Below are positions 7,797-10,264 of a DNA stretch of 64,000 nt, piece after piece. Made by a program: the position numbers and the translations under genes. Numbering within the stretch: position 1 is the stretch's first letter; the number at the start of each line of letters is the position of its first letter. Source of the DNA: an uncultured Oscillospiraceae bacterium (lineage in GTDB: Bacteria > Bacillota > Clostridia > Oscillospirales > Oscillospiraceae); contig CALXDJ010000001.1 of assembly GCA_944387035.1 (NCBI GenBank), positions 1 to 64,000 of the forward strand, in the 5' to 3' direction. The notes under the pieces were generated by a model that worked only from the letters and a program-made list of their open reading frames with translations, was not told the origin of the DNA and ran no database searches.

Positions 7797-9200
7797 TTAA
7801 TAGCGGCCCAGGGAGGCAGCGGTATCGGAAGTAGCCGTCTTGCCGAAATGGAAGTCATTTCCGGGCAGAATGGCATTGAGCAGGATACCCGCGATAGCAG
7901 CAATGGCCAGGCTGGTCAAGGTGATGGAGGCACCACCCACCTGGAAGGTCAGGCCGTTGGTAAAGCCCAGACCGCACACCAGGATCACAGCCGCGATGAT
8001 CAGGTTGCGGCTGTTGGTGAAGTCCACCTGATTTTCCACCACATTGCGCACGCCGATGGCGGAAATCATACCATAGAGGATGAAGCTCACGCCGCCGATG
8101 ATGGCATCGGGAATGGAGCTAACCAGGGCAGCAAACGCCGGAGAGAAGGACAGCACCAGGGCATAGATGGCTGCCAGCCGAATCACCCGGGGATCATGGA
8201 CCCGGCTGAGCACCAGCACACCGGTATTCTCACCGTAGGTGGTATTGGCCGGACCGCCGAACAGGCCCGCCAGTGCGGTGGCAATGCCGTCACCAATGAG
8301 GGTCCGGTGCAGGCCCGGGTCCTCGATAAAGTTCTCGCCCACCGTAGCGGAGATGGCAGACATATCGCCGATATGCTCCATCATGGAGGCAATGGCAATG
8401 GGCGCCATTACCAGGATTGCAGACACGTCAAACTTGGCCACACTGCCGCTAAAGTTGGACAGGAAGGGCTGCAGGCCAATGGGAGCAGAACTCTGCACCC
8501 CGGAAAAATCCATCAGGGGGCTCACATTGCCCGCAGCATCCAGCGCCGTAGCGCCCATGGCGTTGGCAATCAGCGCCACTACATAGGCGCCGACCACACC
8601 CAGCAGGATGGGGATAATCTTAATCATGCCCTTGCCCCAGATGTTGGCCACCACAATAATGGCCATGGCCACCAGGGCCAGCCACCAGCAGGTGGAGGCA
8701 TTGGACACGGCGGAGGGTGCCAGGTTCAGTCCGATGAGAATGATGATGGGACCGGTCACCACAGGGGGAAGGTAGCGCATGACCTTATGAACGCCCACAA
8801 CTTTAATAACCAGGGCCAGAATCACATACAGCAGGCCTGCCACCACAATGCCGCCGCAGGTGTACTGCAGCTTTTCCGCAGGCTCCATCGTGGCGTACAT
8901 GCCGGAGTCCATCTGCGCCATCGCCTGGAAACCGCCCAGGAAGGCAAAGGAGGATCCCAGGAAGGCCGGTACCTTCAGCCGGGTGCACACGTGGAAGAAC
9001 AGCGTGCCCACGCCGGCGAAAAACAGCGTGGTCTGGATAGACAGGGGCAGTCCGTATCCCTGAACCAGGATGGGCACCAGCACGGTAGCACCGAACATGG
9101 CAAACATATGCTGCAGGCCCAGCAACAGCATCTTGGGCAGCCCCAGCGTCCGGGCATCCCGGATCGGCTGCTGGCCAATGGGGGGTTGCGTCTTGTTCAT
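7797..9200 (-). CDS. uraA: Uracil permease (UraA/PyrP, NCS2 family)
   Basis: The 467-residue protein has about 12-14 hydrophobic segments. Family motifs are present: LPKMLLLGLQHMFAMFGATVLVP near the N-terminus, the HIGDMSAIS substrate-site segment, and GLFGGPANTTYGENTGVL. It imports uracil with protons. The start at 9200 follows GAGGAGAG and overlaps the stop codon of a leader ORF. That ORF runs through an intrinsic terminator, so expression is probably attenuated in response to UTP. There is no linked pyrimidine biosynthesis gene in the window. Confidence 0.93.
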   Translation of the reverse strand: MNKTQPPIGQQPIRDARTLGLPKMLLLGLQHMFAMFGATVLVPILVQGYGLPLSIQTTLFFAGVGTLFFHVCTRLKVPAFLGSSFAFLGGFQAMAQMDSGMYATMEPAEKLQYTCGGIVVAGLLYVILALVIKVVGVHKVMRYLPPVVTGPIIILIGLNLAPSAVSNASTCWWLALVAMAIIVVANIWGKGMIKIIPILLGVVGAYVVALIANAMGATALDAAGNVSPLMDFSGVQSSAPIGLQPFLSNFSGSVAKFDVSAILVMAPIAIASMMEHIGDMSAISATVGENFIEDPGLHRTLIGDGIATALAGLFGGPANTTYGENTGVLVLSRVHDPRVIRLAAIYALVLSFSPAFAALVSSIPDAIIGGVSFILYGMISAIGVRNVVENQVDFTNSRNLIIAAVILVCGLGFTNGLTFQVGGASITLTSLAIAAIAGILLNAILPGNDFHFGKTATSDTAASLGRY

Positions 9201-9325
9201 GAAAACTCTCCTCTCTCTCGTAGCCCCGCAGGGCAAAAAAACACCGGCCCCCTGGCCGGCTCACACATGGGAATGAAAATAAAGAAAAAAGGGCTGTTTC
9301 TGCGTGCCATCAGTTCAAAGCGCAT
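9197..9325 (-). CDS. Leader peptide of a PyrL-like attenuator, 42 aa
   Basis: The ATG at 9325 has a good ribosome site (GGGAGGAGG) in the 5' leader. The peptide begins MRFELMARRNSPFFFIFIP, passes through ARGPVFFCPAG and ends GEFS. Its TGA overlaps the permease ATG. The phenylalanine/isoleucine run is coded by a T-rich stretch, and the second FF pair is coded by the T tract of an intrinsic terminator. E. coli pyrBI leader peptide has the same order of elements: a PFFF segment, then a GAFFCPG-like segment at the terminator. The peptide itself is probably not functional; its translation would be the switch. Confidence 0.8.
   Translation of the reverse strand: MRFELMARRNSPFFFIFIPMCEPARGPVFFCPAGLRERGEFS
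9235..9259 (-). terminator. Attenuator terminator within the uracil permease leader
   Basis: The stem GGCCGG (9254-9259) / CCGGCC (9244-9249) has a 4-base loop and is followed on the minus strand by seven T's (9235-9241), about 35 bases before the permease start. A T-rich pause region lies just upstream (9272-9290). A ribosome translating the leader would cover the stem and allow read-through. Confidence 0.8.
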
Positions 9326-9354
9326 ACTGTCCCCTCCTCCCGTTATTTTGACCT

Positions 9355-9383
9355 ATTATACAAAAAGGTGCCCTGCTTTGCAA
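9355..9383 (-). promoter_or_regulatory. Promoter of the uracil permease leader
   Basis: On the minus strand, TTGCAA (9378-9383), a 17-bp spacer and the consensus TATAAT (9355-9360) are present. Transcription would start about 25 bases before the leader ATG. Confidence 0.82.
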
Positions 9384-9455: not shown

Positions 9456-9884
9456 TCATTTCAACAATTCTGCAATCTGAGATTCTCCATACACCGGAAT
9501 TCCCTGCTCTTCCAGCAGCTGCGCTGTCACACCGCTGCCTTCTGTCAGACATCCCGAGAAGGTTCCATCATAGATTGCGCCATGGCCGCAGGAAGGGCTG
9601 CGCTCCTTGAGCACTGCAGCCCGGCAATCCAGCAGGCTGCAAAGCCGCCATGCTTCTTCTGCTCCCCGGTGGTATGCCTCGGTCACATCCCCAGTTCGGG
9701 TCACAACCCGATCCCCCCGCCGCTCTGCCGGCGGCCGGGGTGTCGGCAGCCCGCCCAACTGCTCCGGACACACCGGCACCAACTCATAGCGCCGGGCCAG
9801 CGCCTCTGCCAGCGGGTGGGTCTTGGAGGCGCCATCATACCGGCACCGGCAGCCCAAAAGGCACGCAGAAATCAAAAGGCGCAT
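9456..9884 (-). CDS. DUF523 family protein
   Basis: The 142-residue protein begins MRLLISACLLGCRCRYDG, the hallmark opening of DUF523, followed by VPVCPEQLGGLPTPRPPAE and the Cys motif LKERSPSCGHGAIYDG. The conserved Cys residues suggest a metal or Fe-S site, but no reaction has been assigned that I know of. I chose the ATG at 9884 because family members start this way; a GTG at 9893 overlaps the upstream stop and is an alternative. It forms a tight pair with the DUF3783 gene upstream. Confidence 0.82.
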   Translation of the reverse strand: MRLLISACLLGCRCRYDGASKTHPLAEALARRYELVPVCPEQLGGLPTPRPPAERRGDRVVTRTGDVTEAYHRGAEEAWRLCSLLDCRAAVLKERSPSCGHGAIYDGTFSGCLTEGSGVTAQLLEEQGIPVYGESQIAELLK

Positions 9885-9889
9885 GCTCC

Positions 9890-10264
9890 TCACCTTCCCT
9901 GTATGGCACGCTTTTCCCGCAGCAGTTCCGTATAGAGTGTCACGGCGTTCCAGTTTCGGTTATGGGGCGTCAGCACTGCCTTGAGACATTCCGGTCCGGC
10001 GCCTGCCTTATTCAGCGCTGCCAGCACCGCATCCAGCTGGCCATCCAAGCCGCACAGCACTACCATTCTTCCTCCCAGGGTTCCCCCTGCGTAGGGCTGC
10101 ACGGGCCCCGGTGCTGTGTCCAGCCCCGCCAATACTGCCAAGGTCTTATTGTAATCTGTTTTTGCCACCGGCACCACTTCCGCTCCCAGCGGCCCCACCG
10201 CTGCCTCCAGCGCCAGGATGCTCAGCAGAGAATCAAATCCAAACAGAAGGACCGTTCCATTCAT
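9890..10264 (-). CDS. DUF3783 family protein
   Basis: The 124-residue protein opens MNGTVLLFGFDSLLSILALEAAV and contains MVVLCGLDGQLDAVLAALNKAG, then LKAVLTPHNRNWN, then LYTELLREKRAI. This matches DUF3783, a small cytoplasmic family without known function. It immediately precedes the DUF523 gene, so the two are likely cotranscribed. Confidence 0.78.
   Translation of the reverse strand: MNGTVLLFGFDSLLSILALEAAVGPLGAEVVPVAKTDYNKTLAVLAGLDTAPGPVQPYAGGTLGGRMVVLCGLDGQLDAVLAALNKAGAGPECLKAVLTPHNRNWNAVTLYTELLREKRAIQGR

Follow-up and report, generated by a model that had tools for sequence, protein, structure and literature searches.

In E. coli, pyrBI and pyrE use translation coupling to sense UTP. 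A stretch of 64,000 nt from an uncultured Oscillospiraceae bacterium (positions 1 to 64,000 of contig CALXDJ010000001.1; hereafter the window) carries a uracil permease gene behind a short leader, which a preliminary description had likened to that of pyrBI. The question raised by this locus is whether uracil uptake in the Bacillota is set by a switch of this kind and, if so, whether the likeness reflects transfer or convergence. In this study, we compared the leader with the uraA upstream regions of relatives. The reading that we favour, with a probability of about 0.7, is that of a cis-acting, ribosome-coupled transcription attenuator of the pyrBI/pyrE kind, which would set uracil permease expression by pyrimidine nucleotide supply and would have evolved independently in the Bacillota.

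The uraA locus and its leader

The uraA gene (7797-9200, minus strand) encodes an NCS2 uracil permease of 467 aa, which scored above the cut-offs of PF00860 and TIGR00801, and whose best match among solved structures was E. coli UraA (8omz, E 1.4e-54). The region 9383-9197 of the minus strand, on which all features described below are located, contains in this order a promoter, a leader ORF, a T-rich stretch, an intrinsic terminator and the uraA start. The promoter, the 42-codon leader ORF with a ribosome site, the T-rich stretch, the hairpin and the overlap of the leader stop with the permease start had all been named in the preliminary description, with the strand left unstated, and all were found to be present.

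The promoter is sigma-70-like, with a -35 element TTGCAA (9378-9383) and a -10 element TATAAT (9355-9360) separated by a 17-nt spacer and matching 10 of 12 consensus bases; it was the single promoter observed in a scan of 1 kb, against 0.2 expected. The leader ORF (9197-9325; ATG start, 42 codons, MRFELMARRNSPFFFIFIPMCEPARGPVFFCPAGLRERGEFS) is preceded by the Shine-Dalgarno sequence GGAGGAGGGG (9331-9340). It crosses the terminator, and its TGA (9199-9197) overlaps the uraA ATG (9200) as ATGA. The T-rich (pyrimidine-rich) stretch at 9272-9290 is the proposed site at which RNA polymerase would be slowed when UTP is limiting. Downstream lie a TGA at the base of the hairpin (9261-9263), which is out of frame in the window and marks the place of the in-frame leader stop in relatives, the terminator hairpin GCCGGCC-AGGG-GGCCGGT (9243-9260; -14 kcal/mol on folding) and its tract of seven T (9235-9241). 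Compared with shuffles of equal composition, the stability of this hairpin was not unusual (z -0.83); the anatomy of the window stands above chance because it is conserved as a whole in relatives, and not because of the hairpin alone.

Directly upstream of the leader and on the same strand is a gene of the PF04463 family (2-thiouracil desulfurase family, DUF523-like; 9456-9893), followed by a terminator-like site at 9453-9440; a link of this gene to uracil metabolism is possible. In an Rfam scan of the window, a c-di-GMP-I riboswitch at 605-688 (70.5 bits, gathering cut-off 35; E 8.6e-12) was the only element to reach the threshold, and it would act on genes past the left end of the window. 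The preliminary description had seen no PyrR-type element at the leader, which agrees with the absence of any Rfam PyrR element from the window, and a PyrR gene was likewise without a match in the window's genome (G000, 96% complete). Control by PyrR was rejected on these two grounds.

Conservation of leader anatomy in relatives

Homologues of uraA were drawn from 120 genomes of the family, 80 named GTDB contigs, 61 genomes of the genus and 295 genomes of the order, and gave 154 distinct upstream regions after removal of duplicates. A terminator-like hairpin was located at most 140 nt from uraA in 72 of the 154, and 67 of these 72 also had a leader ORF, which was picked by its start codon and ribosome site only, blind to the position of its stop. 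Five clearly different cases (L018, L050, L051, L087 and L095) were removed by hand. The remaining 62 of the 154 regions, mostly from Oscillospiraceae, share the anatomy of the window, and counts over these 62 leaders come from relatives that are not independent samples. TTGCAA was their commonest -35 element (25/62) and TATAAT was present in 37/62. The leader-ORF-coupled terminator with its T-rich stretch, previously described at the window's permease, was thus recovered across these loci with the ORF, the T-richness and the hairpin conserved. At every position of the hairpin stem several Watson-Crick pair types occur, that is, the stem covaries.

The leader stop codon ended between -2 and +3 nt relative to the hairpin's first base in 40 of the 62 leaders, against 6.46 +/- 2.21 in dinucleotide shuffles (z 15); the others ended within the hairpin (17), read through it (3) or stopped short of it (2). 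In all, the leader ORF reached the hairpin in 60 of 62 (shuffles, 37.4 +/- 3.7). As a control, ordinary ORFs of 120 aa or more at the same loci were examined; 5 of 111 had a stop that overlapped their terminator hairpin, and most stops lay 11-40 nt from it. Both TGA (33) and TAA (7) are used by the 40 leaders that end at the hairpin base, and it is therefore a stop codon that is kept, not one fixed sequence. From the leader start to the hairpin downstream, the median distance is 65 nt, and a typical leader has about 20 codons. The exact stop-hairpin-T pattern was found in 20 of the 61 genus genomes, once per genome and, by comparison of coordinates, always just before uraA; a reversed control pattern had no matches.

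The leader peptides diverge widely among relatives, with start, length, stop position and T content being kept. The mean T fraction of the 36 nt preceding the hairpin was 0.47 over the 62 loci, compared with 0.22 in the uraA genes, and the profile climbs from about 0.2 to 0.5 only within the last 30 nt before the hairpin. Phe triplets numbered 95, 109 and 123 in the three frames of the 62 leaders; the reading frame is not favoured, and therefore base content is conserved, not a codon. This frame-independent enrichment in T speaks for an effect on RNA polymerase and against amino-acid attenuation. In 61 of the 62 relatives the -10 box is situated 25-40 nt ahead of the leader start codon, and a 5' UTR so short has no room for an aptamer; in keeping with this, no conserved aptamer of a metabolite riboswitch was found, and Rfam gave no match at the leader.

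On a permease tree built by a quick method, the attenuators were strongly clustered: 50 carriers fall into one supported clade of 52 permeases, which takes in the entire sample of the Oscillibacter-like genus, and outlying carriers occur elsewhere in the order. The carriers related to Oscillibacter are gut bacteria. One of the two non-carriers in this clade, L162, resembles its sister carriers L004 and L005 by eye. The uraA homologues of Lachnospiraceae were without a terminator. In some distant homologues, and often in PyrR-bearing relatives, pyrR lies directly upstream of uraA. Among the 120 family genomes, a PyrR gene was absent from all 15 carriers and present in 23 others, an exclusion that is statistically weak and no more than suggestive (Fisher p = 0.07). 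The same element was not seen at the pyr biosynthesis operon (pyrC-K-D-F-E-B) of the window's genome, nor, in the stretches chosen for reading, at carA, upp or a second NCS2 permease in the genomes checked.

Several loci deviated from the common picture. In L004, L005, L162, L168, L170, L171, L172 and L074, the U-rich stretch appeared by eye to form the 5' arm of the terminator hairpin, and in L004 and L005 the leader stop falls in the hairpin loop, which is another arrangement of the same parts. Four records labelled Spirochaetales, Fusobacterium naviforme or Saccharibacteria (L040, L064, L099 and L100) carry uraA of the Oscillospiraceae or Lachnospiraceae type, and represent mislabelled or chimeric assemblies, or gene transfer.

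Read-through leaders and likeness to known systems

Compared with its relatives, the window is a derived, read-through version of the attenuator. Like theirs, its TGA (9263-9261) is placed at the base of the hairpin, and because this codon is out of frame the ORF runs on through the terminator to uraA. Of the two other read-through leaders, L036 carries TGG in place of the TGA of its close relatives L140 and L159, and its read-through probably arose independently, seemingly by a single change. The third, L143, has a stop that overlaps the start of uraA as ATGA, as in the window; these overlaps, probably independent of each other, may add translational coupling to the attenuator.

The window follows the exact order of E. 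coli pyrBI (pyrL), in which a promoter, a translated leader, a U-rich stretch and a T-tract terminator are followed by the end of an ORF that crosses the terminator to stop near the structural gene. The two differ in phylum, and in target, which is synthesis in E. coli and uptake here. The claim that the layout is that of pyrBI stands for the window; it does not extend to the conserved layout, as most relatives stop at the hairpin base. With its stop codon just ahead of the terminator, that layout is closer to E. coli rph-pyrE, where translation coupling sets read-through; in that system the ORF ahead of the terminator is the complete rph gene, whereas here it is a dedicated leader. Coupling of translation to read-through of the E. 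coli pyrE type was reportedly the subject of studies by Bonekamp in 1984 and Jensen in 1993. By the same measure, the T-rich stretch of uraA leaders is richer in T (median 0.47) than that of E. coli pyrL (0.36).

The preliminary description had also noted a match of the leader peptide to PyrL and had left transfer and convergence as alternatives. The likeness itself withstood comparison with composition: the PyrL alignment score of the window peptide was 55, and the maximum among 1000 shuffles of that peptide was 43. This score is, however, the best of 186, and relatives read in any frame, wrong ones included, reached at most 41 (median 22.5). Kinship was not upheld, and homology to PyrL was rejected, since the window peptide scored 14.2 bits against PF08052 (cut-off 25) and 14.5 bits against NCBIfam PRK10224 (cut-off 61), and since the leaders of relatives mostly stop ahead of the FFCP segment, which is encoded by the T tract. 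The leader peptides of six relatives had no NCBIfam match. The likeness arises from the order of T-run, hairpin and T tract: the window has PFFF...FFCP because its reading frame, like that of PyrL, happens to pass over both the T-rich stretch and the T tract. As the window is a derived read-through version, the resemblance is best read as convergence, likely at the level of bases, and transfer is unlikely. The recurrence of a near-identical peptide fragment as a by-product of base-level constraints is an example of misleading protein similarity.

Among Gram-positive systems, the PyrR-controlled pyr attenuators of Bacillota share with the uraA leaders transcription attenuation of pyrimidine genes. 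They differ in that the carriers checked have no PyrR gene, the window has no Rfam PyrR element, and the uraA leader is too short before its ORF. The tlrB and vmlR leaders of B. subtilis likewise combine attenuation with pausing of polymerase and with a short translated leader ORF (PMC12288461); those leaders respond to antibiotics through ribosome stalling, whereas the uraA leaders have no conserved stall codon and precede a uracil permease. No description of a uraA leader attenuator was found in the open-access literature, subscription journals and preprints being mostly beyond the scope of the search. The element is known as a kind; as far as that literature shows, what is new is its lineage, its target gene, the placing of the stop at the hairpin and its independent origin.

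Proposed mechanism and alternative explanations

Three features of a pyrBI/pyrE-type attenuator, namely an ORF with a ribosome site, a U-rich stretch and a terminator that the ORF reaches or enters, were found at the sequence level. Under the proposed mechanism, transcription would begin about 30 nt ahead of the leader ATG, and a ribosome would load while RNA polymerase copies the T-rich stretch just before the terminator, polymerase being 0-30 nt short of the hairpin when the leader start becomes accessible. With ample UTP (and CTP), polymerase would pass quickly, the hairpin would fold ahead of the ribosome, and transcription would end before uraA. With little UTP, polymerase would slow in the T-rich stretch and the ribosome would close the gap. 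In most relatives a ribosome at the leader stop on the hairpin base would then block pairing of the 5' arm; in the window a ribosome translating into the hairpin would do so. With the terminator cancelled, uraA would be transcribed and uracil imported, and low UTP should raise both uraA expression and uptake. Translation lowers the efficiency of a terminator located 5 bp behind a stop codon from about 90% to less than 10% in E. coli (PMC4824070). The attenuator itself is, on comparative grounds, close to certain, and the position of the stop codon makes ribosome coupling very likely. We infer the pausing, the dependence on translation, the direction of the response and the signal, for which UTP would be the natural reading of a T-rich stretch in front of this gene.

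The leader ORF could instead encode a small protein, or be accidental, and its terminator could be an ordinary one that lowers uraA transcription by a fixed factor. Terminators near stop codons are not rare in Bacillota, which favours such an explanation; we nevertheless consider it improbable, as the peptides diverge without a matching change in start, length, stop position or T content, and as ordinary ORF stops so seldom overlap their hairpin. Moreover, a promoter was found upstream of the leader, and uraA transcripts from it must cross the terminator. The last 12 codons of the leaders encode Phe and Ser more often than any other residue, as would be expected of a Phe/Ser attenuator of the trp/his kind. 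This reading is barely credible given that Phe triplets are equally common in the wrong frames, that a uracil permease is unlinked to Phe, and that folding of the window sequence showed no alternative antiterminator hairpin.

A coupled attenuator of the same build might also report something other than UTP, if pausing were set by NusG (at TTNTTT-type motifs) or by the general speed of ribosome and polymerase, in which case it would follow translation capacity or growth state. In B. subtilis it is established that polymerase pauses in a NusG-dependent way at T-rich non-template DNA of leaders, some with a leader peptide (PMC12288461), and T-rich DNA is exactly the conserved part of the uraA leaders. 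The B. subtilis NusG pause motif TTNTTT was, however, not above composition (62 sites; shuffles, 75.8 +/- 9), and a general sensor leaves the association with the uracil permease alone unexplained, which makes this alternative unlikely. Attenuation by Rho at the pyrimidine-rich leader, for which termination by B. subtilis Rho at C/U-rich RNA (PMC13323073) could be cited, is very improbable, the conserved and covarying intrinsic terminator being sufficient and the pyrimidine-rich stretch being just some 30 nt long.

For the UTP-responsive attenuator that we prefer, the main tension is with the classing of Bacillota as runaway-transcription species, in which polymerase outruns the ribosomes (PMC13323073) and coupling should not come easily. 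Slowing of polymerase in the first 100 nt may provide the exception needed for the switch to work. The confinement of the element to uraA, with its absence from the other pyrimidine genes examined, also counts against the model. On balance, we lean towards an independently evolved UTP-sensing attenuator with close ribosome-polymerase coupling, which would use a stop locked to the hairpin base as its braking point in genomes without PyrR, across a clade of a phylum classed among those with runaway transcription. If this is true, the uraA leader would add a natural case of convergence on the pyrBI/pyrE switch outside the proteobacteria. Because the switch needs a ribosome to catch polymerase within about 65 nt, it would also offer a native locus at which to study transcription-translation coupling in a phylum thought to be uncoupled, and it would reveal the means by which pyrimidine uptake is controlled in Oscillospirales that have no PyrR.
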